Assembly (NCBI RefSeq): GCF_964355755.1
Contig: NC_092676.1
Coordinates: 6,926,288 to 6,990,287 of the forward strand
DNA length: 64,000 nt
From: Antedon mediterranea
Lineage: Eukaryota > Echinodermata > Crinoidea > Comatulida > Antedonidae
Reading direction: 5' to 3'
Of this stretch, positions 5,721 through 58,400 are shown in pieces. Positions within the stretch are counted from its first letter, which is position 1. Each line of letters starts with the position of its first letter. The notes beneath the pieces are model-generated. The model ran no database searches, was not told the origin of the DNA, and was given only the letters and a program-made list of their open reading frames with translations. The translations under genes were made by a program, and so were the position numbers.

Positions 5721-7870
5721 GATTTGAGAGATCGTTTACCTTTAGGATGGCGGCACTCGCAAACAGTGATGACCCAAAACAGTGATGACTCAAACGATCG
5801 AAACTAAGCGTGTTGGTTGCAAATAGTAAATATTACTAATATTAATTTATCAAACTAGGCCTAATAAGCCTACTTATTTATTTTGTCAACCACCACCGTA
5901 GGCCTATTATCACCACAATTTCACATTAGCTCTTTATTAGCTACAGTTTTTGTTATTGAAACATATTGACATCCTGAATATATTTTTGTTATTTATAATA
6001 ACATTAATGGAATGATGCGTTTGCAACAGCGGCACAAACGTATCGGTAGTGCATCCTAATAATAACACAAAAAAATACCAAAAGTAAAAATACAATGTTC
6101 AATTCAATTCAACTTTATTTTAGACAAGCTGTGCATATGAAGAATATACATACAATAAGAAAAAAAAAGAAATACAAAATCATTATATGACAACCGTTGG
6201 AGAGAGGACCAATAATTATTTGTTGACATATAGGGCCACTCCATCTCCACTTAAAATACATTTTGGAATAAAAAAATAAATATTCATATATACAAATTAG
6301 AATTTTATTATTTTTGCTTTTCATAATTCTGAGCATTTTGAGCCTTAAGAATTCATACAAAGAACATTATTTTCCACAAACAGATTTCTTGTACTGAGAT
6401 ACCGGGGTTGATCGGATAGTTCCTAGTAGCCTCTAGCATGCTGACGCGAACAGCCTGCCTGCTTTAGGCTATAGTCAACAGTATTCATTGCAGTACAGAC
6501 CTGTATAAAGCTTGTTAAAAATTAAAAACAGATTAATAATAAAACATTGTAAGTTCAAGCGTGTATTAAACAACTGTAATCATTAACTAGACATAGAATC
6601 ATAAATATTACACAAATTATGAAGGAATAATTATTTTCCCGCATTAAAAATTGAAAAATGTAAGGGGTTCACTTCCGTCTTTTTTTTTCATGGGAGAAAC
6701 GATCTTTTTAGTACTCCTAATGACCGATTTATAGGCCTAAGTATTGTTGCTTGTTTCTTGGACCGCACCGCAGATTCAAAGATGGTGAACAATTCATTGT
6801 TAAGTTGCCGTGGTATTTTTGTTAAATTGATGTTTTATTTTTTCCTTGATGTTTTGTTTAAAATTGCCGCGTGAGGGTTTTTTTTTTATTGCCGTGGCTT
6901 TAACAAAAAAAAACGTGTCTCCTTGAAAAAATAATTATTAACAAAATGTTTGTTGAATATGCCATTTTAATGTAACAATATTTATCCACTTTGACAAAAA
7001 ATTGGATAGAAAAAAAGTGTATTTACCTGAAAAAACTGTAATTTAAAGCAGAACATGGTCAAAAATTAGCTGCCAGCCAATGGGTTTTTGGTTGAATTTA
7101 ACTTGTCATTTTTATAAGTGAAAACATTTATTTTTTTATTGTTTTTCATCTGAAGTGATTAACTTTATTAAAACTACAAAATAATCTATTCAATGTTTTT
7201 ATTTTATTAATCTTTACTTTTCATGTCTTTGGGGAACAATACATCTTTAAATTGCCATGATATTTTTGGAAAGTTGCCGTGACACTTACAGGCCACCGTA
7301 ATTTTTATTTGTAGAGGGCGGAGAGAGCGCGGTAAATTTTATCTAAAATCAGCAAAGCGTGACGATGAAAACAAAAAGTGAATAGGCCCTAATTATGCAA
7401 TTTTGTTACCGTTTTACTTTTAGTTTACATACATTTGTTTATGTTAACATTTTAATCATAATTGAACTATATAAACGTTCTAGCCTAGGCCTCCTATAAT
7501 TAGTTGTAGGCCTAATTAATTAACCTAAAAATAAACCTAGGAGGGCTAGGCCTAGGCCTAGGTAGGCTAGATTAGGTAGGCCTAGGAACTCTAAACTAGC
7601 CTAGTCGCAGTCCCAGAACCCGTGGCCTGGCCCTGGCCTGACTATCCTAGCTAACTCAGGCATAGCTAGCTAGGCCCTACTACTGTACTATGGCCCTTAC
7701 TAAACCCTAGCATGCCTTAACTTAATCATGCCTAGGGGCCTAGTATTAATGTTAAATTAATTAAATTTTTATTTTGCAGCATTTGAAATGTATTCTTATT
7801 GCATCAATACAATGTTTAATAATTTAAATTAATATCAGCTAATAAATAAGCAATCATATTTATAGTTTAG
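5721..7870. other. Intergenic region upstream of the TPP1-like gene
   Basis: No exon could be supported. At 6092-6125 there is a run of AATTCAATTCAACTTTATT, the reverse complement of the TTGAATTGAATT tail typical of LINE 3' ends, so a decayed minus-strand LINE end is likely. A family B MITE lies at about 6910-7250. From 7485 to 7745 the DNA is dominated by overlapping TAGGCCTAGG-type runs. A short GC-richer patch at 7310-7370 could be a promoter or an untranslated first exon of the next gene, but no splice donor was convincing. Confidence 0.35.
6910..7250. mobile_element. MITE family B, copy 1
   Basis: The right end reads GGGGAACAATACATCTTTAA, the inverted terminal repeat of family B. The interior shares CTGCCAGCCAATGG and GTGATTAACTT with the copy at 24377-24680. 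The left end is eroded. There is no coding capacity. Confidence 0.5.
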
Positions 7871-7887
7871 CAAAGTACACTTTGGCA

Positions 7888-10800
7888 ATGGAAGTTGCAA
7901 GGAATAACCCAGTCGGTTTCCCTTGGATTTACTGTTTGAGCCATGCTGGCTTTGATACAACTCAATATTTGATGGCGGAAATTGTTTCTGTGGAGGTTGT
8001 ATGATTTGAAATTTTTTTTTTGTCTCTCTTGTGAACTTCATTCAATCAATCATAACAACATAATAACTTATTTTCTTCATAAAAATGATATTACCATAAT
8101 AACATGTAGTAACGTGATTTTTACAACAATAATAATTATAAGATATACAGTAATTATTTACAGTGTTTATTTACAATAATTAACAGTGAAAAATAACACT
8201 GACGTTTGATAATATTGAAAAATGAATGAAACACAGAAGTAAAAGTAGAATACTAATAAATACTGAACAAATACATTGTTTCATTAGAGAAGTAATCTTT
8301 TTTTTTAGATTTTAGATCCTCCAATTGAAGATATTTACTATGGACATGGAATTTTGACCGATAAGTATCAGAATATTGATGCATATTTCACCAAAACTTG
8401 TGTAAACAATTATGATTGGTAACTATTTCTACGTTTTATTTTATTTAAAGATGTATTGTCCCCAAAACACATGAAAAATGAAGTTTATTAAAATCAGACT
8501 TTGAATAGGCCATTTTTTAGTTTTAACAAAGCCAATTTGACTATTTTGTGACTAGTTTTTTTCAGGTAATAATTTTTTTTTCCAGCTGTGTACAGTGGCT
8601 ACGAGCGCTCACAGGTTAAACTCAGGTGCCCCGGAGCACTACCATTTTCATCTTAATCTTAATAAATGTTAATGGTATTTATATATTTTATGATAGTTTA
8701 TCCATATTTGTATATAAAATTAATGAAATTGTTTTGTTTTATCTCAGCCTGTTAGAGTGCAGGTTTCATATCTCTGTTGGCTGTGAATAAGACAAGTTAA
8801 AATTAAAAGTTATTTATACTTTTAATTCTCTTTTTCTTCTTCTATAATGCAATGTAAAAATGTTATTTAATATTATTTATAGTATTTGTCAATAATGTAA
8901 TTTCTTTGTTAATATGCATTTATTTATATTTTTGGAGTAAAATGAATATATTATTATTATTGCTTTGTCAATAATGTCATTGCTTTGTCAATAATGTCAT
9001 TGTTTGTCAATAATGTCATTGTTTGTCAATAATGTCATTGTTTGTCAATAATGTCATTGTCAATTATGTCATTGTTTGTCAATAAATGTTATTGTCAATT
9101 ATGTCATTGCTTTGTCAATAATGTCATTGTTTGTCAATAATGTCATTGTCAATTATGTCATTGTTTGTCAATAAATGTCATTGGCAATTATGTCATTGCT
9201 TTGTCAATAATGTCATTGTTTGTCAATAAATGTCATTTCTTTTTCAATAATGTCATCATATTTTCAGTGATCAGGATAGTATTTCAGGATGTACATTCGC
9301 AGACCTTGCCAAATCACGTATTACTCTTACTAAGTATGAAATTGGAACTAATTACCATGAGGTATGTACAGTATAACTTTGCACTGTGATGAGGCTTAAT
9401 CAGCACTACCAATCCTAAATGCAGCAGTGGCTATGAGCATTCATTTGCTAAACCCAGGGGCCTCAGAGGTTAAGGGAACCCAGATAGACAGCCCAAATGC
9501 AACTACCCAGCGTTGGAGGGCTCCTAGGAGTGCTAAGCCATACCCTTCTGTATTATGCCACTGGAATGCAGGTCAACCCTCTGTCTTCCAAAAGATGCAC
9601 TGGGTTCTTTAAAATGCACACAATCTAGATTTGACAACAGCTCGAGTTTTAAGTACTTGTCCAAGAAAATGTGTTCTACCACCAGAACGAGGAGAGCTAA
9701 TTTTATAAATATAGTGTGCCACTGCCAAACCAGTTGGCCATTTGAATCCACTGTACAGTTTTACACTTACAGTATATTTAGTTTTTTATTTTCTTAGGAA
9801 AAAAAGACAGAATTCTATCTCAAAGTGATGGAATTTAGCTTACTTAGCACTGAACAATTCTCTCAAATGAATGTCGATGATGAGAATTACATATTAGACA
9901 AAAGGTAAGAGAACTGTCATTCTTCAGTGGAAACAAAACATTTTCTGTGAATCCCTATAAATGTGATGTGCCCAAATATGGTAGTGATATGGCCAAATAT
10001 GGAATTGGTATGACATCATCATGTCAATATATGTGCACATCACATTTTTTTGATAGTGTAGACAGAGCTTTATGATTTGTTGGGTCCAACGTTAGTTTCA
10101 TCTTTAATAGCTAAATTGTCTTGCGTCATTTGTAATAAGAAATCTCATTTGTATTTAGACGTGTGAAGTTTGTAGGAAATAATTCTGAAGACAGTATTTA
10201 CAACTTATCCAACTTATGCAATTTTGCGAATGATTCTCGTATGGAAATGAACTCCGAGTATGAAACGCAGGAATCTAACAATAACATGGAAAACATTGGT
10301 ACTATAAACGCAGAAGAAACAGGTGGGCTGATTATTTACAAAGACGATTTAGAGGTAAATCATTTTATTCTCTATGTTTGTGTCTCACCACCTCTTCCCA
10401 ACTTTTTGGGATAGGTTAGCTAGTGGCATCCATAGCATAGTACTTAAATAGTTAAGCTCTGTCAGCACTATCAAACTAGTTTGACAAAAAAGTGTGATGT
10501 GCCCAAATATGGTAGTGATATGACGTCATTGTTTCCATATATGGGCACATCATATTTTTTTCACATAAAGTTTGGTAGTATAGATGGAGCTTAATGATGT
10601 CACAGTATGTGTTTTGTCTTTTGTGGGGCAGACATAATCTAAACCTTCTACTTGGATTTTCTTCGTATTTTTTTTTTTGCTTTGCAGTGTGTAAAAAGCA
10701 CATTAATACTGTACTATTTTTTACATTTAATGTTAAACAATGTGTAAAGCTCTGTCTTATCAGATTATGTGACAAAAATGTGATGTGCCCAATATGGTCA

Positions 10801-13800
10801 GTGGTATGGCCAAATATGGTAGTGGTATGGCCAAATATGGTATTGTTATGACATCTTCATGTCCATATATGGGCACATCACATTTGTTTTGTCACATCAA
10901 GTTTGATAGTGTAGACAGAGCTTAAGTTTTTCATTTAAACTCTGAGTTCCCTTCAATGTGATTGTTAATGAACAGTCTAGTACAGTAGTATTAAGGTCTA
11001 ATGTTAAAATAACGTAAAAACTATGTATTAAATATTTGATGCTTGCAAAGCAAAGCAAACAACTTTCTGACCTTTTCTTTATGTTTTTATCAAGCTTGAG
11101 CTTTTGTCTTCCTCGGAGGAAGAATTACTGGAAGAAGAAATTGAAGAATTGGGAATTAGAAAACTAGAAAACCCAGAAATTGTACTACTAAAAAACGTAA
11201 ATGTTACTATTTTTTGTGCAATCTTCTAAGCATGCTTCATACAAAAGTAAAAATATGTTACATACAGTAACCTATTAAAGGACAACTTGACCGAGGACCA
11301 TATTTTTACAACGTGTTAGGGATGTACATACTACGATGCACCTGTGACGTCACAGCAATTTACCACGATGGCTGTACAGAGAGCGCGTGCTTAATTTCGC
11401 ATAGGGGTTGGCCGTAGTGTTAACACATATATTGCTCATCATTTGAGCGAGAGTGAGAGACTTCAGACTAGCCAATCAGAATGGTGTATTCATTATAACA
11501 CTTTCTTTTATTTATTTTATGTTTTTATCAAGCTTGAACTTCTATCATCTGAGGGAGAACTGGTTGAAGAAGAAATTCAAGAGGAATTAGGAAGTGGAAA
11601 ACTAGAAAACCCAGAAGTTGTATTACTAAGAAACGTACAGGTAAATTTTAATTTTGTTTACAATTTTATAATGTTTTTATTGTTAAACCTAATAGTAGAA
11701 TACTATCCAATAGCAAACATGTATTTGATGCATGATGATCTTTGATCCAGAAACCCAAGTGAGGGAGAGTAAATCTAATTTTGGTTCTTTCTGGTCCTAA
11801 TATTGATATTTTGAGCATGGAGGTCTATTAGTCCATGCTAATGAACAATAGTTTACCCAACTGACCCTTGACCCTTGAAAGCAAAACAATGTAATTACTA
11901 AGAAGTTCATTAAAGCACATCTGATTGGCTCTGTCGTAGAACAATGATTACATAATTCAATGAGGCCAATAGCATTGTTTCAAAGGCAAGTTCAGACTTG
12001 CCAGTCAGGTTGGTGTATTTGACCTTACCATGACCTTTTATTTATTGTGTTGTTTTTATCAAGCTTGAACTTCTGTCCTCTGAGGGAGAAGTGGTTGAAG
12101 AAGAAATTGAAGAAGAATTGGGAAGTAAAGGAATAGACAATAATAATGTTGTACAGAGAAACTTAAATGAAGAAAATACCACAAACAATAGTAAAACAAG
12201 AAAAGAACTAAATTCATTTGAAGTAGAAGAACTAAATGGACTGGAGGCTTCCAGTTTGGGAGAACTGGTAGAAAATCGAAATGAAAATGGAACCAAAGAA
12301 TGGAAAGGTAAAGAAAAAGAAAGAAATAGAGGACATACAAGATTTGTTAGAAAGAAGTTGAATTATTAGATTATTAAGTTGATTAAAATACAGTATATTA
12401 ATATACAGTATTACAAAGAAAAATTAAAACAAATAGATATGGCAATTCATTCGTCCCTGCTGCAATACGATTTTATAATGAATGACATGCGCTAGTTTTA
12501 TTTATTAGTATTTTAATCGACATTTTAGGATTTTATATTTATATTTTGTATGGCTTTTTTATTGTAATTTATATATTTTATATACTGTATCCATTTTATA
12601 TTTGTATGTACTGTATTTTTGAAAAGGCCAACAGAGTTTCCTCATGGGGATAATAAAGTTGTAATTGAATTGAATTACATTAATTTTAATATTTTTTTCC
12701 TATTACTTTAATTTTTATTGAAGGTTTAGAAGAAGACTGTGATACAAGTAACCAATCATCGAGTATGGCCTCACAAGCGAGTAAAATATATTTTTCTACA
12801 AGAAAATATAGAAACAAACGCAGACTTCTTGAGATAAATGATAAAAAAGCATACAATATTCAACGTTGTTCGGCAGATAACAGACATAAAACATCAGACG
12901 ATACACAACATGAATTGTCAGATGGTATACAGCATGAATTGGCAGACAATACACCAGAATTGGCAGATGATATTCAGCATGAATTGGCAGATGATATTCA
13001 GCATGAATTGGCAGACGATATTCAGCATGAATTGGCAGACGATATACAGCATGAATTGGCAGATGATATACAGCATGGATTGGCAGATGATATACAGCAT
13101 GAATTGGCAGATGATATACAGCATGAATTGGCAGATGATATTCAGCATGAATTGGCAGACGATACAGCATATGAATTGCCAGACGATACAGCACCTGAAT
13201 TGGCAGACGATACAGCACATGAATTGGCAGATGATAGTTTAAAACTGGAAAATATTGTAATAATTTACAAGGAAGACTTGCAGGTAATAGTTTGTTAAAA
13301 ATTTAGCTTTTGGGTAACAAGGATAGAGAGCAGACTGACATTCTCTGAAATAAAATACTGTATATGCAGCTCTCTGATCAATGAATTGTTGCAAGTAATA
13401 ATAAACTACAATCATTGTATACTGTATGTAGGTGTATTGCATCGTATGCCGAGTATATGATACAATACTGTAGTTTTAGTCCTAGTAGAATAAATATTTT
13501 ATTTCTGAGACAGATTATTAAAAATCTACATTTTTATATTTTATTCAAAGCTTGAGTTGATTGAGGATGACGAAGAATATGCTGATGAATCTTCTGAATT
13601 GATTCGCTCGAACTCCATCATCGAGTGCGACTCTGAGACCGGCGACTCATTCGTTATAAGTGCCAGTGATTCCTCACTTTACCCAAGTCAAAAAGGTATA
13701 AAGTTAATCTTTTTCAATTTTCAAGGACTCTTAAGCGAGATGTTTTATATGATGAATTAAAGCTTGGTTTAAAAAAAAAATTGAAATAATTTTCATAAAA

Positions 13801-16047
13801 AAATGTGGTTGTAATGTTACCTACTACATTTACTTCAGTAAAGCCTGTCTAATCCAGACAATAGGGAGGTTTCGCAACCTTATGAATACGATAACCAAAA
13901 CAGATACGTCACATATTTGTAAAACTTTTGAACTGATCCCCATTTCATATTCGTAAAGCGTATTCGTGCTGACGAATATCACCATCATATTTGTTACTAC
14001 AAAACGAGCATAGTTTTTGATATATTTTGCACATTTAGCATTTGAGTCAGGAATTATTCATGATTATAATATAATTATAGATTTATTGAAAGTAATTTAC
14101 TAAAAGTAATTTACTAAAATGCCAGGTCAATTTTGATAAATAGCAGTTTTGAAAGTCCTCACTTGCTTTGATGTTACGCTAGGCCTAGGCAGCCAAGCAA
14201 CACGTACCTGGGCTTCGTTCAAATTACAGTAAAAACTACAGGCTTATGGCCAATTAGCCGTTTAAAACACTTAACTAAAATGGCCTAACCAAAATGATTA
14301 AGATTCAAATAGTCAAGAACAGTAACACTACTTTAAAAGTGTTATAACAACGTATGTAGTACTCCCTGTCAGGAATAAGTAAACTCTCTACTATTAGATA
14401 ATAAGCGTGATTAATTCTTGCAGACAATTTTTTAACCAAAAAACAAAACATTCACGCCTCCAATGTCAATGTTCAAAATCCGAAACACCGTCTTCGAAAC
14501 AAACCAAATTTCAGTGTCAACAAATGGAATTTCTTCTCATTTCAGAATCTAACATCTTTGGTTCAGCATCTTTCACGCTTGACAGCCATTTACCAGATTG
14601 TGTGAGAACTTGTTCGACCGTTTCACAGCAAGATGTTTCAAGTACCAACAAAAACCACGAAGAATGTTTAAAGAGCAACCAAGCGAAACATACTTTGTTG
14701 GAAGATTGGACGCAGGATAGCATGATATTGATACAAGATACGCCCACAATGAACAAATCAAATTGTAACCAATCTACAAATCTTGAAATGGCTGTGGTAA
14801 TCACGGAAAAATGTTCAGAGGATCAAAATCAGAAAACTGAAACCCAAAGCGGGTCTCGGAAAACAAATTGTGAACAAAGTTTGGATAGAATAAGTAATGT
14901 TACAAATTGCGCTCGATTACAAGATTCACAATCTACCGCAAAAAGAAAAAAAGTTGAACATTTAGAAAAAGCTTCATGCTCACAACCAGCTAAGAAACGG
15001 AAGACTAATTTATCCCTTTCAAGCACCAGTAAAGTGAATGATGGAAATGATATACCACATTCGTCCAATCAAATCGCTGCAACTTCAAGTAAAATGTCAG
15101 ATGTATGTAGAAAACAAACTGAACAGTGTAATCCTAAAAAGCCCAAAACCAATCATGTTGCCAAGGAGCCTAAAACTAACCATGCTTCACAAAAGGTAGG
15201 AAAATAATATTTTATCATATTCATAACTACTGTATATAATGTTAATTGTATATACTGTATAAAGCGCATTCCACAAATAATGCCGTCTTAATGTGCTGTG
15301 AACTTAAATGTTACGTACTTCAAGTACATGGTTCTTTCCTAAAGCGTGGTTCCCACTAGCGACGCAACGCAAGGACGTAACGCAACGCAAATGAATTGAC
15401 CAATCACAAGCGATGGCTTATTCGCTTATGATTGCTAACTGTCTATAACTTCGCTTGTCATTGATTAAAACGCTTGCGTTGCGTTTACGTCCTTGCGTTA
15501 CGTTCTAGTGGGAACCAAGCTTTAGGGCTACCGCATCGGTTCTGCGCTGTTTGGTCTGTCCCCTACAGTGGTTGTGTACGGAGGTATGCTTTGGTAACCC
15601 ATACTTGTCTCGAAAGATGTACAACAGTAGGTTCTTTAAAGTGCACATCAGCATTATGTGTACACTGGACATATGGTTTATAATCCTTATCTGAGAAGAC
15701 TCATTCTACCATTAGAATTATGAATCAATTGAGCCTCTTGTCATAATGCTATGGATTATGGTTCCACTGTCTTAACCGCTCGCCCCCCCCCCCCCCCCAC
15801 TCATAAAGTTGATTACCTTATACCTACAGTACACGAATCAGTTTGGATGACAATGTGCGTTGGAGGCCATTGGGCATTTTTTAAGTATAGTAATTATTAT
15901 ACTGTTTTATCAACAATTATTTACTGTTATTCCTACTATTGTTTACTGTTAATCAAATCAACTGTTTTCTTTATTACTTAGCACAAGCAGCACAACGAAT
16001 CCTCGGAAGACTTGTTTCTCTGGTGTATTGAGTATCTCAAGATCTGA
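7888..16047 (+). CDS. ACD: TPP1-like shelterin protein (ACD homologue), 12 exons
   Basis: Exons: 7888-7995, 8309-8418, 9268-9361, 9798-9904, 10159-10354, 11095-11196, 11533-11640, 12064-12307, 12724-13283, 13551-13695, 14546-15195, 15982-16047. All junctions keep frame and give 829 residues. Introns are GT-AG; the first donor (GTTGTA) is weak. Residues 110-124, FYLKVMEFSLLSTEQ, closely match the TPP1 OB-fold strand FYLQVDRFSLLPTEQ. FPWI at 11-14 matches the PWI at the start of that fold. The acidic stretch around residues 70-77 lies where the human TEL patch glutamates lie. The extreme C-terminus (LFLWCIEYLKI) resembles the TIN2-binding tail. TPP1 bridges POT1 to TIN2 at telomeres and recruits telomerase. 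The protein is longer than human TPP1 (about 460-540 residues) because of acidic duplicated exons (206-356) and a nine-residue repeat (about 417-530). A bipartite basic stretch near 723-746 is a likely nuclear signal. The start codon has purine -3 and G +4. The family call rests on a remembered human sequence, not on a search. Confidence 0.62.
8445..8582. mobile_element. MITE family B, truncated copy 2
   Basis: This begins TTAAAGATGTATTGTCCCC and continues with CATGAAAAATGAAG and ACTTTGAATAGGCCATTTT, as in the copies at 17421 and 31056. It stops after the TTTTTTCAGGTAATAATTTTT portion, so the right half is missing. It lies in intron 2 of the TPP1-like gene. Confidence 0.6.
8955..9258. repeat. 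19-bp minisatellite in intron 2 of the TPP1-like gene
   Basis: About fifteen irregular copies of TTTGTCAATAATGTCATTG occur, with shortened variants such as GTCAATTATGTCATTG. The array runs to within about 10 bp of the acceptor of the exon at 9268, and its final, diverged unit forms part of the region where a branch point and pyrimidine tract would be expected. Confidence 0.85.
9425..9760 (-). mobile_element. Decayed tRNA-type SINE, family 1
   Basis: The central GGGTTCTTTAAAATGCACA and the CTACCACCAGAACGA segment match the better copies at 15524-15795 and 27425-27715 in the same orientation. The tRNA-like head should lie at the right end (minus strand), where ATGGCCAACTGGTTT resembles an A box. 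It lies in intron 3 of the TPP1-like gene. Open frames crossing it are not genes. Confidence 0.5.
9962..10075. mobile_element. MITE family A, copy 1 (left end lost)
   Basis: It reads GTGATGTGCCCAAATATGG, then TGACATCATCATGTC, then the mirrored CACATCACATTT and GATAGTGTAGACAGAGCTTT. The left terminal repeat is missing. It lies in intron 4 of the TPP1-like gene. Confidence 0.75.
10454..10592. mobile_element. MITE family A, copy 2
   Basis: This copy is complete: AAGCTCTGTCAGCACTATCA at the left and its inverted partner ending TAGATGGAGCTT at the right, about 139 bp apart. The interior is a near-palindrome, GTGATGTGCCCAAATATGG to CCATATATGGGCACATCA. It lies in intron 5 of the TPP1-like gene. Confidence 0.85.
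10746..10925. mobile_element. MITE family A, copy 3
   Basis: The ends AAAGCTCTGTCTTATCAGAT and GATAGTGTAGACAGAGCTTA are inverted. The core GTGGTATGGCCAAATATGG is repeated twice, an early stage of the internal expansion seen at 53092-53380. It lies in the same intron as copy 2. Confidence 0.85.
12440..12680 (+). mobile_element. Decayed LINE 3' end
   Basis: One frame reads NSFVPAAIRFYNE then stop at about 12445-12485, which resembles the conserved C-terminal end of many non-LTR retrotransposon reverse transcriptase ORFs (NSF-P-AIRLYN). About 170 bp further on comes CATGGGGATAATAAAGTTGT and an AATTGAATTGAATT tail, a usual LINE 3' terminus. It lies in intron 8 of the TPP1-like gene. Confidence 0.55.
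12900..13240 (+). repeat. 27-bp coding minisatellite (DDIQHELAD units)
   Basis: The array lies within the exon 12724-13283. About twelve units of 27 bp encode DD(I/T)(Q/A)HELA with small variants; some outer units are shortened or read DDTAPELA and DDTAYELP. The array keeps the frame of the TPP1-like gene. Because the unit has no stop in other frames, it also produces long spurious open frames on both strands (about 12796-13242). Confidence 0.95.
15341..15524. mobile_element. MITE with long inverted repeats (family C)
   Basis: The left arm starts AAAGCGTGGTTCCCACTAGC and continues with GACGCAACGCAAGGACGTAA; the right arm is its near-perfect inverse, ending CTAGTGGGAACCAAGCTTTA. Arms are about 50 bp, total about 184 bp, with no coding capacity. 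It lies in the last intron of the TPP1-like gene. Confidence 0.85.
15524..15800 (-). mobile_element. tRNA-type SINE, family 1
   Basis: The shared body TAGGTTCTTTAAAGTGCACA, then TGTACACTGG and CATATGGTTTATAATCCTTAT, matches 27425-27715. The minus-strand tRNA-like head ends in a poly-C tract (about 15783-15799) that probably replaced part of it. It abuts MITE family C. Confidence 0.65.
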
Positions 16048-16864
16048 TTAATAACATTTAGAGCGATCTACCATCACTACTATTAGGGAGATTTTGATTT
16101 GCAAGACCAAGGATCAACAACCTGGTGGAACAGCATAGGCCTAGCCCTCCTAGCTAGGAGCCTCGCATTCAAACGCCATGCAGAATGTGTTGCTTTTAAT
16201 ACAGCGTTGAACAATTAAATAAGAAGTTCAAATATTATTTAGAGTTTTGAAATTTTCATGTTTAAGTGTAAGTTGAACTGTATATTTAAGGTTATTTCTA
16301 GTCGTTCTCCATAAACAGGAAAATGGCAACTTTATCGATAAGCTCCGCCCACATTGTTAAAGCTCTTGCATAAATTATTCATGAGCACTGTCTTGTGGCT
16401 TTCCGTCGTGTTTCGTAAAGTCCCTAATATCATCAGTCAACAGCGTATAGCTAAAAGATATTGACAAAATAAAGGCATTTATCATTTCAGAAGACATTTA
16501 TTCACAAATTCATCGATTCTCATTAAACAATAATAAAATAGAGAGGAGTTATTTATCGTTCCTTTCTAAAATGCTACAAAGACAGTGGTTTATAGTAATA
16601 TCAAATATAGGACTGGGTACCAGTAAAATATTTGAAACATGAATATTGTATAGTATAGTTTTAACTACTGTATCATAAAATAAACATTTTTTTAACTTAG
16701 TGGTATTGAGACAGGCTCATAGACATTGCCAACGTTTTTGTATAAATTCTTGATTTATCATGAAAATGTAGATCATTAAAAAGAACAACCAAAATAATAC
16801 AACTACTGGTTATGAATTTCAATCAGAGGTTGTTCTATGTTAACTCATTTATGATGCATTTGTT

Positions 16865-17025
16865 AAAGCTCTGTCTACTCTATCAAACTAGTTTGACAAA
16901 AAAGGTGTGATGTGCCCAAATATGGTAGTGATATGCTCAAATATGGAAGTGATATGACATCATCATGTCCATATATGGGCACATTTTTTTTTCACATAAA
17001 GATTGATTGTGTAGACAAGGTTTTG
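16865..17025. mobile_element. MITE family A, copy 4
   Basis: It starts AAAGCTCTGTCTACTCTATC, contains GTGATGTGCCCAAATATGG twice in part, and ends in a slightly damaged right repeat (GATTGTGTAGACAAGGTTTT). Confidence 0.85.
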
Positions 17026-17420
17026 AGCATGGATATATTAGTATCACAGACAAGGATTATTCAAATAAAGAATATGAATTATTTAAATGAGGATCGTACA
17101 TAGACAACACATTTCTGTCTATGGACTAATTGTTACACCTAAAAGCAGTATAGAGGGAATTAACACATACACACTTCACAATACTTGTACTACAACTGGA
17201 CATAGTCGGTATACCACTACTGTACAAATATTATATACCCAGAGGTAGAGTATTATACAACTAAAGAGTTAAATACTATAGATAGTGAAGTGATGCCAAC
17301 AGGACAAGGAATTTTCAAAATGACCACCTTATCGGTTCAAAAATATTATGAAAACCACATAAATCAGTAATCATGTTTCTGTTTTAAATACATTACCGTT
17401 TTTATAAATTACTAATATCG

Positions 17421-17713
17421 TTAAAGATGGAAAAAAAAAACACGGGAAAAAAAACATTAATAGAATAAGACTTTGAATAGGCCATTTTGCAGTTTTAATA
17501 AAGTTATTCACTTCTGTAGACAAAAAAAGTTATTTCACTTAAAAAAAGACAAAATAAACGGTTCACGGTTAAATTACAGTTACATTTTTTTCAGGAAAAT
17601 AAGTTTTTTTCGATCCCGTTTTTGGTCAATCAAAGTGAATAACTATTATGTAAACATTAAAATAGCATATTCAACAAAAACTATTTTTTTAGGGCGGACA
17701 ATAAATCTTTAAT
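17421..17713. mobile_element. MITE family B, copy 3
   Basis: It starts TTAAAGATGGAAAAAAAAAA and ends GGGCGGACAATAAATCTTTA. The interior segments ACTTTGAATAGGCCATTTT, GTTTTTGGTCAA and TGAATAACTATTATG are shared with 31056-31332. Total is about 293 bp with no coding capacity. Confidence 0.75.
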
Positions 17714-18398
17714 GACATTGAAAAGAACAGTTGTTCGGTAAATGTTTAACAATTTCATATACGACTATCATTTATAGGATACACTCAACATGCTGCAATG
17801 CAGGTGTAGTGCAGTAGTAACTGCATAGTTGGTGCAGCTTCAAACTGATTGGCGATCAATATTTGGAGTATGTTTTGAGTTAAATCTCTAATTGTATAAT
17901 ACCTCTATGATTATACTGTACCACAAACATGAGTACCATTCAATATTTTATATTGCAATTCTCTATTATTTGTACCCTGAAAAAAGACCAAAACACATAA
18001 GTACATAAACAGCCTATGAACAAACATCGATTTATAAGTTGGCAGTGTACAGTTTGTTATCAAAACTAGAACATCGGAAATTATGTCAATGGAAACTAAT
18101 AAACTGCCAATTCTACTATAAAACGTTATTTTTATGATTTTAAAGATTTAGCTATTTTCAGAGCACAAAAAACATGACATAATTTTTACAGTACATGAAG
18201 ATAATGAATACAGATTATATAATAAATCCATTGCATAAATTATTTATATTTCACACAGTACAACTCATTCATACAAATAATATGATACAGTAAAACAGAA
18301 TCAAGTCAGTTTCAATGTAATTGTCATAACAGAGGTGCCAAGTTGTTTTTGTTTGTGAAAGACCAATCATACTGTACCAATGATACATATATAACAGT

Positions 18399-18534
18399 AA
18401 AGCCTCTGTCTACAATATCAGACTTTGTGACAAAAAATATGTGACCATATATGGACAAGATGTTGTCATATCACTACCATATTTGGGCACATCACACTTT
18501 CTTTTGTCAACTTGATACTATAGCAGAGCTTAAG
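18399..18534. mobile_element. MITE family A, copy 5
   Basis: It runs from AAAGCCTCTGTCTACAATAT to GATACTATAGCAGAGCTTAA. It is in the opposite internal orientation to copies 1-4: the CCATATATGGAC half comes first and the CCATATTTGGGCACATCAC half second. Confidence 0.85.
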
Positions 18535-19767
18535 ACTTCCAGAGAGACTGATAATTTATCATTATTTCTGGAACAGATAGTTAGAATAATAGGAATATAT
18601 AAAAGTTTTGTTTTTCCTCAGCGAAATTTCTGTCTGTGTGTATGTTATGTTTAACATATGTACACTTCAGGCATACAGTATGCTGCTGTTTTTTTATGTA
18701 AATAAATACAGTATACAGTATGTTAGTGGTCATTATTGCAGCTGTTTCTACCCAACTAAAAAGACCTTGGCATCTTTGTTATTATATATTGAATATAATA
18801 AATTACAGAGAGACTTACAGAAAACATTTAAAAATACCACACCTTTTATAATTTTACAAAATATGATTTTTTATTTAATATTTGGCAACTTTTAAGGGAA
18901 GAAGCTGTAATATAATTAAAATGTACCAACATGGTACTGTTCATAAATGCTACTAATTGTTAATAAATACCCACTATACTATAGTACAACCATTCAATAG
19001 TGCGTACTATTGCACGCCATGTGACCCACAATTGTCCAATCAAAATGACAGGAATTTATTTAGGTGTTATATAATACATATATTTCTTAGGTCTGGGCAT
19101 GGAAATAAAAAGGATAACGGTACATTATAAGAGAAGCACATGGGAAGTGTAGGTATATTTTTTTCATAATATATACAATTTTTTTTTCTATCAGGCCTTC
19201 CTTCACAAGAGTTATTTTCACATTTTGCTTTAGATACAGTATCACTATCTACAGCCTCAAAATATTTTTCATATTTGATTGGAACTTTACCATTGAGTAA
19301 AATTGTTCTGTTCATTATACTTATTTAACAGAGTATTCTGAGCGTTGAGATTGCACTCAAAGAAAAAGGCTTGCATTGTTTAACATTTTTGTTTTAATGA
19401 TTTTCTGTTGAGCACAATCTGTTTACAACTTGCCATTCATGTACAAAAAGTACTCAACTACTATTTATGCTGACATCATTTTCAATTTTCACCACCCACC
19501 CAAATTCCCCAGCAAAGATCATCATATTTTATATAAATAATAAAGCATCTTTGCTTCGTCTGTTTTTAACCTCTCGCAACAGCCTTGGTTGACTACGAAA
19601 GTTCCCAATCGAATACAACAATTGAAGTTTTAAAGACTATTTGCTAATTTTGGGGTGATAGTTGTGTTCGCCTATAAATTCCATATTACAAGCAAATGAA
19701 TACAAACAAAACAATAAATACTATTTAGTAGTATTAAGCATCTCATATATATTTGATGAACACAGAC

Positions 19768-19927
19768 CAAATCTCCGTCTACACTATTAAACTTTATGTG
19801 ACAAAAAGATGTGATGTGCTCATATATGGACACGATGATGTTATATCAATACCATATTTGGGCATATCACTACCATACCATATTTGGGAACTGTTCACAC
19901 TTTTTTCAGTGTGGACAGAGCTTTAAG
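19768..19927. mobile_element. MITE family A, copy 6
   Basis: It runs from AAATCTCCGTCTACACTATT to TGTGGACAGAGCTTTA. The internal orientation is as in copy 5, with a duplicated ATCACTACCATA segment. Confidence 0.8.
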
Positions 19928-20723
19928 TAGTTAACCTGGCTATTGGTGGGTGTGGTTTCCTGTTATATATCACAATGTTATCGGCAAACCATTGCACACA
20001 CTTCAATCTATTATGTAAATTGTTAACATAAATAATAAATATGTATTATGAGTTTGTGCTTCAACAAAATGATTTATTTTTCATGATCATTTAAATTTAA
20101 AATGATTTAAAATGTGTTATTTTTTTCCTAATAAAAAAAAAAATAAAACAAATACGCATAAAATTATAATTTCAAATTAACTTTATAATATCATTGTGTA
20201 ACAAGTTTAGGACTGAAAAATAGTACTTGATAGTATTTTTAAAACAATATTTTATTAAATGTTTTATATTGTTTAGGATAATTTTATGGTCATTTTTATC
20301 TATATAAGTAAAAAAAAAATTAAAAATAATATTTCTATCAAACATGCATTTACAAATTATATTTAAAACTAATATATAACTAATTATGTATATCACACAA
20401 CCAAGCAAACCCATATAATTCATATAAAATAATAGAAATTTTAATCTAAAAATACATGCAAACAACTAAGATAATCAATAGATTTTAATATAGTTAAACA
20501 AAATATTGTATATGTATTGAAGTATAATTGTTTTATAAGTTGGCTAAATAAATACAGTGTAAGTCAGTTGAGTTTTAGATATAATATAAAAATTAAAAAT
20601 ACTGTAAATACAAAATATTGCCATAATGTTTTGAAAGGTTTCAATTTTCTAAAATTGATTTTAAATTTTTTTAATTTTAAGGTTCTAATAATTATCAAAA
20701 TAATTTGAACATTTTTTTTTTAT

Positions 20724-21295
20724 TTCTTATAGCTAGGTAATTCACCAACTACAAGATAAGTAGACTATCCCATTCATTCTTATAGCTAGGTAATTCACCA
20801 ACTACAAGATGAGTAGACTATCCCATTCATTCTTATAGCTAGGTAATTCACCCTACAAGATGAGTAGACTATCCCATTCATTCTTATAGCTAGGTAATTC
20901 ACCCTACAAGATGAGTAGACTATCCCATTCATTCTTATAGCTAGGTAATTCACCCTACAAGATGAGTAGACTATCCCATTCATTCTTATAGCTAGGTAAT
21001 TCACCCTACAAGATGAGTAGACTATCCCATTTATTCTTATAGCTAGGTAATTCACCCTACAAGATGAGTAGACTATCCCATTTATTCTTATAGCTAGGTA
21101 ATTCACCCTACAAGATGAGTAGACTATCCCATTCATTCTTATAGCTAGGTAATTCACCCTACAAGATGAGTAGACTATCCCATTTATTCTTATAGCTAGG
21201 TAATTCACCAACTACAAGATGAGTAGACTATCCCATTCATTCTTATAGCTAGGTAATTCACCCTACAAGATGAGTAGACTATCCCATTCATTCTT
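20724..21295. repeat. 51-bp minisatellite, about eleven copies
   Basis: The unit runs TTCTTATAGCTAGGTAATTC, then ACCCTACAAGATGAGTAGAC, then TATCCCATTCA. Most copies are 51 bp; three (the first two and one near 21187) are 53 bp, with ACCAACTACAAG in place of ACCCTACAAG. Copies are almost identical, so the array is young or homogenised. Since 51 is divisible by three, it creates a stop-free frame on the minus strand (20795-21211) with a 17-residue repeat. I treat that as an artefact. Confidence 0.95.
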
Positions 21296-22160
21296 TAAAA
21301 TTAAGATTCATTATGGAACATATTGGACAATCATGTCATATTAGTTAAAATTTAATTAAATTTGATTTATAAAAACATACATGATTTTAATTTCAATAAA
21401 TATATTTGTGTTTAGGTGGGAGAAATAATACTAAGTATCTACGGATATTAAGTATCATTAGTATTTATAAAATAAAATGTCAAAAACAATGTATCATATT
21501 AAAAAAAAATGAGCGATTGACACTTAAAGTGAACAGGGTGCTCTTAGCTAGGCCATGTCAACTACTGTACTACTGTCTAGGGAGATATTTTTTAATACAA
21601 AAAAAGCTTTGGTAGGCTTTGATAAAATGTAATCATAGGCCAGCTAAGCGTGTTCCTTTTCTAAAAAGGCCGGTGCTTATCTAGCAATACAGTAAGATAG
21701 TACACATGGGACAAATTCTCTACTGAAAATCGGCATGGTTTATTATAATTTGGTTTGTCTGTGGGAAAATTTAATACATTACGATTCAGTGCACAAATTC
21801 TTGAGTAATAATATAAAGCAATCTTTTAAAAACATAATTATTATTAATAAATTTACATGATTTTTATATAATTTCGGGAGTTGTCATCATCAGAATAGGT
21901 TTTTAAAACATTGAATATTTACAACCTGACCAAATATGGTCTGTTTTTTTAGTTTAAATATAATTTACGCTCACTCATGTGAAGCAATTCAATTTGATTT
22001 AGTACTTTATGGGAAATGTCACGAACACAGATTTATCTGTTAACATTAAATAATGTTCTGAAACATCCTTCACAGTGTATACCGTAAATACACTGACAAC
22101 TTACATGCAAACCAATTAAAAATAATACTTCAAATGTTCTTTAGTATGTTTATATACTCA
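21296..22160. other. 3' flank of the Rab gene
   Basis: AT-rich sequence follows the Rab stop codon on the minus strand and presumably contains its 3' untranslated region. The reverse complement of AATAAA appears at about 21738, roughly 420 bp past the stop. Nothing else is recognisable. Confidence 0.35.
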
Positions 22161-23297
22161 TCAACAACATATCCGTTGTCTTTGTGGTGGCTCTTCTAGT
22201 CGCAAAGTTTCTCTCGGAGTTGAGAAACCACCTTTAATGCCATCCCATCCTTCGTGCATCTCCACTTCTCCTTCTTGAAGTTTCACGTAAATTTCTTTAG
22301 CCATCACCGAAAACGCAGCCTCTACGTTAATACATGCTTTCGCGGATGTTTCTATATACTTCATTCCGTAAGCTTTCGCAAACTTCTCGCCTTCTTCCGC
22401 AGCTACTTGTCGTAATTCTTTTAAATCACTTTTGTGACCGATTATCATGTACACAACGCTTCTTGGGTAAATTACATTTTCTTGAGCCTCTAGGAACCAT
22501 TCCTGTAGATGCTCGAAACTTTTACGATTTGAAATGTCAAAAACGAGCAATACTCCTACAGAATTGCGATAGTAGGACGTTGTTATAGATCTGAAGTTTA
22601 AACAAATTTAACATAGGCCTAGTATTATTTTAATAATTTTCATCACTGACTTCTTTTTATAATATTGTATTACTAATAGTGTTTTTAAATATTGTTTGGT
22701 AAAAACACATACTATTATTTACTATTATAATAAAATATTGATCAAATAATTTATATTAAATACACATACGACCAACTACAGTAAACTAATATAAATAATA
22801 ATATTAATAACATTCTGCCCTGAAAATATTAATTGAATCAAAATTAATCGTGGAAAGTGTAGTGTAGGTCCTACTAGCCTACTATTTTCTTACTGACTCA
22901 CTCATATAGGTCTATGTATGTAGATATTGTTTATAAAATACTGTACCGTACAATAATATTATTATTAACAAAGAATCAGTAATTTTTAGGCCTAAATAAA
23001 AGTGACAGTATTAAAAAATAGAAATATTCTGAAGTTATTTTACCTAAAACGTTCTTGACCTGCTGTATCCCATAGCTGCAGTTTAACTCGTCTACCTGGT
23101 GCAACTTCTATAAGTCTTGCATAAAAATCTACACCTACAGTAGGGTCTGAAGTTTCTACAAATTTACCATCACAAAATCGTCGCAACAAACACGATTTTC
23201 CTACCGTTGAATCCCCAACCAAAATCATTCGAAATTGGTACTCCCATATAACTTCTGGTGGCAACCCTGCCAATTGATCCCCACTCATATCGTTCAT
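22161..23297 (-). CDS. RAB39: Rab GTPase of the RAB39/RAB42 clade, complete
   Basis: Two exons, 23297-23044 and 22590-22161, with a GT-AG intron splitting an Arg codon, give 227 residues. A Rab GTPase cycles between GDP and GTP on a membrane and recruits effectors; RAB39 proteins act in endolysosomal, autophagic and Golgi-linked traffic. Motifs in order: P-loop GDSTVGKS (28-35), the switch I threonine in DPTVGVDF, WDTAGQE (76-82) with the catalytic Gln81, GHKSD (136-140, the variant of NKxD usual for this clade) and ETSAK (165-169). It ends in a CC prenylation motif (226-227). Overall it is closest to RAB39A/B, but VGVLLVFD, NRKSFEH and KLQLWD are closer to vertebrate RAB42, so it may represent the state before the two separated. 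There is an extra N-terminal extension of about 14 residues before the EVIWEYQFR block. The start is the first in-frame ATG. Confidence 0.93.
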
Positions 23298-24222
23298 TTT
23301 TATATTATTCTTTTAAACGTATAAGTACAAACCGTAATTAGCACACTAATTATTAGTTAATCAGTTATTTGTTTTGGACATTCAATAAAAAGGTGTTTTC
23401 CTTCATTTTCTTTCGTTATAAACATGAACTTTGACCCACCACAAGAAGACTTTTAAATTGTAAAATACGTTTTTGACCTGTGCACTGAAACGCTCAATTA
23501 ACTAGAGATGTTTGTGTATTTGAACTTGTTATTTTTATCACCATAAAGTAACTATAAAATTATCATATAGATAAGTTTAATTGCTATAAATATAACCAAA
23601 ATTATTCTAAATATGACAAAGTAAAACATAGAAAACCGGCTTATGATAACCATTTTGTGAACCGCATTGACATGACTTTTCCATAAAGTAGCACCCACAG
23701 TAACTTATCATTTACGAGTTCGTTGATTGGATGAAATGTGTAACATTCTGGCTGGCTGCCCAATTAAAGGTATTGTTTTATCTTTTTTCTGTTTACACGA
23801 GGTCGCCTTATTTAAAGTACTTTTTTAGAATCAGATAGGTAAACATGTGCGTTGTGCGTGGTATATGGATTTTGGAAGGAAAATCGGACACGAAAATTCA
23901 TGTATATCCTGAAGTTTAAAGTGCAGATAATTTATACATATAATGAACATTTTAACTTATACGTTTTAGACATTGAAAAATAATAAATTGTTTGTTGTAG
24001 GCCTAGTTGAAAAATAGAAAACGGTTCTCCTGCTGGGCCAGGCACTCATCATTATTAAAAGGCAAAACACAGGCACGCCGTGATCATTACGTTCGGCTTG
24101 CTTAGCACATGCCACACCACCAGCTGTTGTTGTATCTACAGTATAAGGCACAAATCGATTTTAGATGAGAACAATAGAGCCTACAATTTTATTAAGGTGG
24201 TGTAGATCATAATTCATTTAAA
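23298..24222. promoter_or_regulatory. Shared divergent promoter region (Rab / SLC35F)
   Basis: The Rab start codon (minus strand, 23297) and the transporter start codon (plus strand, 24223) face away from each other across 925 bp with no repeat family recognised between them. Both 5' untranslated regions and core promoters should lie here unless untranslated first exons lie further off. I see no clear TATA box or CpG-rich core. The open frame at 23966-24151 shows no family signature. Confidence 0.4.
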
Positions 24223-32625: not shown

Positions 32626-33794
32626 ATGGATGATTTTCAGTCCCCAGAAGAGGTAGGTTTGTTTGGTTCGTTTGCCGATTCTGAACAAACGTAGTTAAGC
32701 AAGATAGGCTGACCTAAAAGGCTAGGCCAACCAGCAGCAGGCAGGCAATTTTCTGAATGTTGATGCACTGGCGCTTGTTGGTGATATCGGTAACCAAGTA
32801 CGGTCGCCATAGCCTAGGCCTAGTTATTTATGTCAAATGCTGCTCGGCATTTGGATGTTCATTTAATGGCAATTGTACTTTAAATACATAAGGCACAATT
32901 AAGCTAGGGTGTAGCCTAGTTAAGTTAGGCCTAATATAATTGTAATAATGGTAATTTTAAAATTAATACAGTATCTACTAGCCTCTATCTATAGGCCCCT
33001 AGGCCTATTATATATAAATTTACGTAAGGGCATTAAATACAATTTGTTTTTCAATAAATTGCCAGCATTTTATTTTTATTATTTTTAAATTGTAACATTT
33101 TGTTGTTGTTTAAAAGACTGCTTTTGTGGTGGATGAAGTGAGCAACATCATCAAAGAAGCTGTTGAAGGTACAATTGGAGGAAATGCCTATCAACATAAC
33201 AAAATTAACCAATGGACGTCGAACGTAGTGGAACAATGTCTCAACCAATTGACTAAATTAGGGAAACCCTTTAAATATATAGGTAATTCAAATGTATCAA
33301 ACATTTATTTCATCAAATGTCATACAAATAATACAGAGCATAAAATGAGGACCAACCTAAAAGTAAACTTGTCTCAGTTGACCCTTTAACATGGTTACAG
33401 AAAAAGTTGAATTGGTCAATATGGCGCTGTAGATGATGACTATTTAAAAATATGTAAATATTAATGAACTTTAACTTAACTGAAAACAATAATTATTATG
33501 TAATGTATTGCAGCTTAAACATTGTAAATTGATGTTTTTAAATTTGATGTGCTTTCTTTTACATTGTAATTTTTGAATTGGATAAATAAACCTAGGCCCA
33601 TGCTTTTTTTTAATTAATACTGTATAAACATTGGTTTTTTTTCAGTGTCTGCTGTCATAATGCAAAAGAATGGAGCTGGTCTACACACAGCAAGTTCATG
33701 TTTTTGGGATAACACAACAGATGGTAGTTGTACTGTGAGATGGGAAAATAAAACAATGTACTGTATTGTTAGTATCTTTGGATTAGCGATATAA
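32626..33794 (+). CDS. DYNLT1: Dynein light chain Tctex-type 1, complete
   Basis: Exons 32626-32652, 33117-33282 and 33646-33794 give 113 residues, the same length as human DYNLT1. Cytoplasmic dynein uses this subunit as a dimer that binds the intermediate chain and links cargo. Family-defining blocks are [30 protein letters not shown], a [12 protein letters not shown] block, and [19 protein letters not shown] followed by [18 protein letters not shown]; nearly all residues outside the first nine agree with the vertebrate protein. The first exon codes only MDDFQSPEE. Introns are phase 0 (GTAGGT donor) and phase 1 (GTAATT donor). It is closer to DYNLT1 than DYNLT3 in the GKPFKYI and AFG-type C-terminal region; the last residues are SIFGLAI. 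Confidence 0.97.
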
Positions 33795-53084: not shown

Positions 53085-53382
53085 TGCATTGTCACAGTAT
53101 GTGATGTGGCCATATTGGAAAGTGATGAACACTGCCATATTTGGCCATATCACTACCATATTTGGCCATATCACTACCACTACCATATTTGGCCATATCA
53201 CTACCATATTTTGCCATATCACTACCATATTTGGCCATATCATCACTACCATATTTGGCCATATCATCACTACCATATTTGGCCATATCATCACTACCAT
53301 ATTTGGCCATATCACTACCATATTTGGGCACATCACACTTTTTTTGTCAAACTAGTTTGATAGTATAGACAGAGCTTTATAC
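53085..53382. mobile_element. MITE family A, copy with expanded core
   Basis: The right end is complete (AAACTAGTTTGATAGTATAG then ACAGAGCTTTA); the left terminal repeat is lost. The core word CCATATTTGGCCATATCACTA is amplified to nine copies with a 21-, 24- or 27-bp period (extra ATC or CACTAC). All six frames stay open through it, giving spurious proteins of up to 149 residues. Confidence 0.85.
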
Positions 53383-55262: not shown

Positions 55263-55436
55263 TAAATGAAATAAGTGATATTTCTGTACTGGTTTGATTC
55301 AGCTCAGAATTGAACCAGGCTTAATAGCTTTTGATCTAGTAGTAGGAACATTTTTAATTTAAATAGACAAAGCAATAAAGTTATCTAAAATGAAAACTTT
55401 TCTTTTTAAAGGAGTACTAAATACTAAACAAAAATA

Positions 55437-58400
55437 ATGCCGGGTGAGAACGACATAACGAAGGTCGAGCCAAAACGACAATTGAAGATGATAGAGTTAG
55501 ATCACCTGACGGAACAGGAGCAACAAGTGATTATTGACGTACTGCAACGAGATGAGATTCTACGAAAGAACGAAGAATCTAGAATCAGGTTAGAATTTAG
55601 TCCATCTTTAGTTTTTGAGTCAGAGAAAGTATTATTTTTAAAAGTAAGTAAGAAGTTCAATGGTTTAAAAGTTATTTTTACTTTATTTTATTATAGAAAA
55701 TTTTAATTTCAATTGTAAAAGCCTGATTATTTTAAATGTTATTCGCCTGACCTTTACATAAAAAATGTGTGTATTTAATTTGTCTATGCTACACAAAAAC
55801 TGCTGCGTGTGGCTAGTGTCTTAGACGCTGGATTACCGATCGTGAGTTCGGGGTTCAATTCCAATTCTCGCCACATTGCTTGTATCCTTTAGGCAAGGCA
55901 CTTTACTTACATTTGCCTCTCCACACCCAGGTGTATTAAATGGGTACCGGTTAGATCAAGTCACAAGTTTACGCTGATTACAGTACTAGCTGCATTATGG
56001 GAGTTGCCATACGTGTTTGATCTAAAAATGACTGGAGTGAATGCTTATAAAGTGCCTTTGAGCTTGATTAATCATGAAAATGGCGCTATATAAAAATATG
56101 GTATTCAATATTATTATGACCTTAATAATCAACGCATTAAACATTTATAAAATGAAAAAAAAAAATATTTTCTATTTCAAAAATAAAAATCAGATTGATC
56201 AGCTGTTATTGCTGATATTGATAATCAACATTTTTATTAATGAAAATATCACCTGCCTTAATAATTAATATTGTTTAAATTAGTGTTTATTTTTATTAGA
56301 TAATGTGTGAATCTTTTCAGCTGCTTTACTGATAATGATAGTTTCATCCGATTTCTGCAAGTTTTCATGGGTAATAATAGCAGCATCCTAGATTAGAAAT
56401 GCATGCTACCCAAAAAATATTTACAGTAACTGCATTGAGAACTTAATCCCTATAATCCCGTTTACATCCTACAATCAAGCTATCCTGCTAAAACAGAAAG
56501 CAGAAACTGTTTTTACATGATGATAGAAGACATTGTAAAGGAAATATAAAACATGATATTCATTTTCCCAAACTTCAATATCCTCGTCCTTTGCATGTGC
56601 AGATAGTTTTTTTAAATTTTTGACTTGAATAAACTAAGCATTGCCTTCTCCTGTACATTCTGCATCTCCTCCACCCACTGCAACCTCCCTTCCCCAACCT
56701 CCTCTTTCCATTCCTATCTCACACCCTTTAAATATACCACTGTGCTTTTGATAAAAAAAAAAAGGAAATTTAAAATGCAAGCTGTTTGCATACATAATTT
56801 TCAATTGTTTGATTTATTGAACTCTTATGAAAATAGAAGCAGGAATACAGCTTACATTATGTGTGATTTTAAATTATATTGACAATAGCAGAAATGTATA
56901 AATAATAATAAATAATAATAAAATAAAACATAAATATTAATATCATAATCATCAAGTGTTGAGTTATTATTGTGCTCTATTCAATAATCTATTTTTAGAA
57001 TCAGCAAGATGTAATTTCTTGAAAATTTGAATACATTTTCAGAACACAAAGTATCTATGACTGAATGAAATGGTACTCATACAAGACTATTGAAAAAAAT
57101 GTATAAAAATGTATATGCAAGTTCAGCTATTGAAACATCCATTAAATTGTTAATTGTGTGATTGTCTAAACTTTTCAATTTGTTTCCAAAACTGTTAGTA
57201 CAGTTATTGAATGCTCTCCTTTATAGTTGCATGTATAAACCATTTTAGAAAGCATTCTATAAATGACTTTCATTGTTTTTAATATTCATTTTTCATTTCG
57301 TTTTAAAACCAGATAAACTATGGAGAAAATATGTATATATTTCCTCCATGAATAAACCAACATTGGCCTATTTGTCACGTTTCGAATGGGACATAAAGCC
57401 GTTGGTCCCATGTATATATTGCATGTCAAAGAACTATTTGAAAAGAGTACAGTTGGGATAAGCTCTCGGTGTGCTAATCTGGTAGGCGCTACACTGCTGG
57501 CTGCTATGGTGATCATAGAGGGGCCTAATGCAAATTTCCTCAGTTTCCAGTTAAGTTTGAAGACCAGTATAAAATACCTAAAGCTCTGTCTACACTATCA
57601 AACTACAGTAGTTTGACAAGAAAAAGTGTGATGTGCCCAAATATGGTAGTGATATGACATTATCATGTCCATACATGTTTTTGTCACATAAAGTTTGATA
57701 TTTGTATCTTTAGGCTTTATACCTTTCTCTCAGGGAAGAGCATTACAGTACAATACAACCTGAATATCTGAAGTATTTACTACTTAGACTTTTTGAACAA
57801 GAGTGTAGTGAAAAAAACATCTTATTAGCAACTTGTACAATATCTTTAAGTGTAGAATGTTACTGCTAGGAAAATGAGCTATAAAATGTACAGATAAAGC
57901 TATGTAAGGTCTACTTACCATTAAAATATTTTAACATTCACGCATACATTTTTTCAAATTAGGAATCATAAAAGGTAATTTCTCTAGATATCTTGGCAAT
58001 TGACTTGTTTCATTGTGTTCACGTACAATATTTAAATATCGCTTTTTCAATTTTTGGAATTGTTATTGTTCAAATATTAGTACAGTATATATTGGTTTTA
58101 CTATCATAACTATAATGTCAATTTGTGTTTTATAAAGTAAAATGATTTGATTCAACTTTTTTCTATGCATGTTTTATTCCAGTCTATTTGGTAAAGTTTT
58201 TTAACTTTATAATACTGTATGATATTATGTATTAAAAGTTTAAAACATGCTATTGAATGTCTGTTAATTTGTTATGCTTTGTTGTACTTGATATGTACAG
58301 TATTTAACACATATTTTACTTCGTCAATAACTGGCTTTTTTTTCATTAAAAAAAATGTTCTATATGACCAGGTACGGTATTGTCATGCTAAATTTATGTA

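Follow-up and report, generated by a model that had tools for sequence, protein, structure and literature searches.

A very probable TPP1 (ACD) orthologue and its recently duplicated intact second copy in the crinoid Antedon mediterranea

The crinoid Antedon mediterranea very likely harbors a functional orthologue of TPP1 (ACD), which connects POT1 and telomerase with the other components of the chromosome-end cap, and a recent segmental duplication has, with the same high confidence, given rise to a second intact TPP1 gene in its genome. The locus was analyzed within a stretch of 64,000 nucleotides (contig NC_092676.1, positions 6,926,288 to 6,990,287 of the forward strand; hereafter the window), which has a GC content of about 32% and belongs to a genome of 354 Mb in 18 contigs. 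The initial annotation of this DNA had proposed a TPP1 homologue, and this assignment holds in our analysis, with the Pfam family PF10341 (Shelterin complex subunit, TPP1/ACD) being the best and sole significant profile match.

The gene lies on the + strand and its 12 predicted exons run from an ATG at 7888 to a TGA at 16045-16047, encoding a product of 829 amino acids (Table 1). Its 11 introns are all of the GT-AG type, their phases agree and the frame is open throughout; the twelve junctions counted earlier have to be corrected accordingly. An in-frame stop codon is located 5' of the ATG, and the FPWI motif that had been noted near the start is encoded at 7918, ten residues past the initiator. 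The exon structure is independently supported, because a paralogous gene (copy B, see below) retains every splice site and the reading frame.

Table 1. Coordinates of the TPP1 exons, the duplicated copies and neighboring genes. Positions are those of the window unless a contig (C4, C7) is named.
Feature	Position	Strand	Remarks
Exon 1	7888..7995	+	Start codon, N-terminus with FPWI (at 7918); phase and splice site matched in paralogue B
Exon 2	8309..8418	+	OB-fold region, aa 37-72; Pfam match, paralogue B
Exon 3	9268..9361	+	Acidic loop DCDQD, strand with R90/L93 (paired by hand with human TEL-patch R180/L183)
Exon 4	9798..9904	+	TEFYLKVMEFSLLSTEQ, best conserved OB strand (human counterpart AEFYLQVDRFSLLPTEQ)
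Exon 5	10159..10354	+	End of OB and linker; last residues GGLIIYKDDLE; paralogue B
Exon 6	11095..11196	+	Acidic repeat unit 1, LELLSSSEEELLEEEIEELGIRKLENPEIVLLKN
Exon 7	11533..11640	+	Acidic repeat unit 2
Exon 8	12064..12307	+	Acidic repeat unit 3, then linker
Exon 9	12724..13283	+	8-residue unit ADDIQHEL repeated in frame about 14 times (24-bp tandem repeat 12895-13236); ends IVIIYKEDLQ
Exon 10	13551..13695	+	Acidic segment LELIEDDEEYADESSELIR; paralogue B
Exon 11	14546..15195	+	Low complexity, basic KKRK/KKPK stretches; paralogue B
Exon 12	15982..16047	+	C-terminal tail of TIN2-binding type SSEDLFLWCIEYLKI, stop; residues matched in paralogue B
Duplicated segment (TPP1 and RAB39-like gene)	6335..23421 and C7:6,807,084-6,825,631		About 18 kb, second copy about 124 kb upstream
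Copy B	about C7:6,810,128-6,818,760	same as copy A	12/12 exons, product of 823 aa
Copy C	C4:25,360,919-25,379,477		Pseudogene without exons 1, 11 and 12; 4-base frameshift in exon 5
RAB39-like GTPase gene	22164-23312	-	Within the duplicated segment
Tctex-1/DYNLT exon	33114-33386	+	
Synaptotagmin-like/rabphilin-type gene	55428-59628	+	With FYVE_2 Rab-binding domain

Genome searches with the Pfam models of TPP1, TRF and TIN2 gave no matches, most likely because exons were searched singly; a protein query, the OB part of the predicted product, then found all TPP1 copies, namely the gene of the window (copy A) and two further ones, B and C. In copy B the splice sites are conserved, indels are in-frame only, and the protein ends in KIR followed by TAA. 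The genome carries a second intact TPP1 copy, and such a duplication is uncommon. Most of the aligned exons and introns of A and B are roughly 96% identical. Haplotypes of very heterozygous animals can differ this much, and A and B might then be two haplotypes that the assembler has set in tandem, with no true duplication. We regard this as unlikely. The match is limited to about 18 kb, the flanks downstream of the duplicated block differ, and the 192 kb around both copies contain zero N gaps; the unmatched flanks and the absent gaps thus disfavor mis-assembled alleles.

The OB domain, which spans four exons, is under purifying selection between the copies. Only 2 non-synonymous vs 8 synonymous changes separate A and B in this part (dN/dS 0.05, binomial p 5e-5), and the tail exon is unchanged at the amino-acid level as far as the stop. 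The middle regions of the two genes are weakly constrained (w about 0.5-0.6), and the genome does hold a decayed copy on C4, in which exons are missing, the frame is shifted and intron 2 contains about 17 kb of extra DNA. Both observations could be taken to mean that the homology to TPP1 is genuine, but that copy A is itself a decaying pseudogene and the upstream copy B alone is working. However, there is no stop or frameshift in A, its splice sites are all intact, the indels that distinguish A from B in exons 9 and 11 have lengths divisible by three, and the OB domain is strongly constrained in the comparison of A with B. Decay of copy A is therefore improbable, and we favor two intact genes.

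Other duplications of 90-97% and large 171-bp tandem arrays are found between A and B. Close to the RAB39-like gene a 51-bp unit is repeated about 11 times with 97% identity (window 20724-21295). A dispersed element with the motif GCCCAAATATGGTAGTGATATG is seen many times in the window (9960-10060, 10490-10590, 10780-10920, 16864-17000, 53130-53339) and around the other TPP1 copies; it is probably a short transposable element.

The family assignment of the predicted protein is supported by profile and pairwise comparisons, and the gene itself is of a known kind. In an hmmscan against Pfam, PF10341 matches aa 50-142 with 26.8 bits for the whole protein (curated cut-off 26.5 bits), the OB part alone reaches 31.4 bits (E 2e-7) and paralogue B scores equally. 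No other Pfam family passes its cut-off in this search, and hence no better profile match competes with TPP1. When the OB part was compared with human TPP1 by BLASTP, TEFYLKVMEFSLLSTEQ aligned to AEFYLQVDRFSLLPTEQ (34 aa, 47% identity, E 3e-5). This alignment bears out the resemblance to a vertebrate OB strand that the initial annotation had seen in residues 110-124 (FYLKVMEFSLLSTEQ, encoded at 9813-9857, +). The pairwise signal is concentrated in these roughly 34 residues: a global alignment with human TPP1 lies above shuffled sequences (z 4.7) and is weak outside the best strand, and hhalign with single-sequence profiles aligned the best strand alone, with a probability of 57%. A phmmer search of the PDB with the OB part returned chance matches only, with no TPP1 among them. 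The confinement of the human signal to one strand would also suit some other OB-fold protein, telomeric or not, that resembles TPP1 by chance or convergence, but this is very improbable given that the Pfam TPP1 match spans about 93 residues above the cut-off with no competitor and that FPWI near the N-terminus and a TIN2-type tail at the exact C-terminus are both placed as in human.

We take the human TEL patch to be made up of E168, E169, E171, R180, L183, L212 and E215. In a hand alignment anchored on EFYL, residues R90, L93, L120 and E123 correspond to human R180, L183, L212 and E215, so that 4/7 TEL-patch positions would be human-identical, while an automatic global alignment threads the middle and the acidic loop differently. 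Acidic TEL-patch residues had been proposed earlier; the acidic DCDQD falls at the human E168-E171 loop by hand, and the automatic global alignment puts the loop elsewhere. From FPWI through the OB strands and the acidic loop to the C-terminal LxxW tail, the elements succeed one another as in human TPP1, in line with the initial annotation. Like human TPP1/ACD (PDB 7qxa, 2I46, 5H65, 5XYF), the protein has an N-terminal PWI, followed by an OB sequence with EFYLxVxxFSLLxTEQ, an acidic loop, putative TEL-patch residues R/L/L/E (by hand alignment) and a predicted C-terminal LxxW helix. The short form of human TPP1 carries RPWI at residues 10-13. In contrast to the human protein of 458/544 aa, the crinoid product has 829 aa, it contains an array of 8-residue repeats and additional acidic exons in tandem, its gene is duplicated, and the POT1-binding helices H1/H2 are not recognisable.

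The extreme C-terminus carries an LxxW tail that resembles the TIN2-binding motif. The hydrophobic end LFLWCIEYLKI, already suspected to be TIN2-tail-like, is encoded at 16012-16047 (+, including the stop) as the last 11 residues of the protein, and its LFLW keeps the L and W spacing of human L524/W527 (human LMAW). In human TPP1 the double mutation of L524/W527 abolishes TIN2 binding (PMC8262337). By score alone the tail match is not significant, with 137/2000 shuffles scoring as well; its value lies in the position at the very C-terminal end.

An acidic unit of about 34 residues (LELLSSEGELVEEEI.EELG) has been duplicated in tandem and makes up exon 6, exon 7 and the beginning of exon 8; exons 6 and 7 have phase 0-0. 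The dN/dS among the units is 0.11-0.13, and the introns beside them share only short similarity next to the acceptors, which points to an old and constrained unit. The number of units varies among the gene copies, with one extra in the pseudogene copy C. Among the core copies of the 8-residue repeat in exon 9 differences are mostly synonymous. Helices H1/H2 of the human POT1-binding motif contact the POT1 HJRL domain or its seam with OB3 (PMC5394241). A scan of the full-length product with the human motif yielded several weak candidates at aa 150-165, 195-215 and 644-660, none of them outstanding. We had considered four tandem POT1-binding motifs (a LIIYKDDLE-LELLSS pattern, like human SMLCISENDQLILSS) and rejected them, as the motif scan ranked other sites equal or higher. 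That the acidic segments act as POT1-binding motifs is possible, but we keep it as a reading of low probability that we do not favor. Myler et al. are said to have surveyed shelterin subunits across invertebrates in 2021 and reportedly found invertebrate POT1 to be without the vertebrate HJRL insert, and hence an absence of H1/H2 here would be expected.

In the same genome, a POT1 gene is located on C10:12,465,000-12,483,100; its assembled OB1-OB2 pieces match PF02765 (E 5e-27) and PF16686 (E 1e-18), with OB3-like exons next in order. Upstream of OB1, open frames that have no Pfam match may code for a fourth N-terminal OB fold, and the OB2 region contains a nearly repeated piece, VWVYDDHVE(S/T)VSNVKVSS. 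We further identified a TRF-like C-terminal Myb exon with the telobox VDLKDKWRNM (VDLKDKWRNMQKKY, then stop), a match to the TERT RNA-binding domain, and terminal TTAGGG arrays where contig C3 begins. TIN2 (PF14973 or human TIN2 as query) and a TRFH domain were not detected in searches of single exons run without a positive control. By analogy to the vertebrate family members, the OB domain would contact and recruit telomerase via its TEL-patch-like surface, a middle segment would bind POT1 at the single-stranded overhang, and the helix at the C-terminus would dock on a TIN2-like protein, which in turn might bridge to a TRF protein on the TTAGGG repeats.

It is tempting to speculate that each of the two intact TPP1 genes serves its own telomere task and that the tandem acidic exon units act together as a multivalent platform on which perhaps several POT1 molecules dock. 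We give this extended model little credence; if it were true, a single TPP1 could load two or more POT1 molecules. A lineage-specific duplication of a shelterin gene is likewise seen in mouse, there of POT1 (POT1a/POT1b; PMC8448735) and here of TPP1, and the divided roles of mouse POT1a and POT1b set a precedent for a split between copies. Two intact and recent TPP1 duplicates with a constrained OB domain would offer a natural test of whether two copies can divide end protection and telomerase recruitment between them. Because this fast-evolving protein frequently escapes notice, a complete TPP1 from a non-vertebrate that also has its own POT1 helps to map the origin of shelterin.
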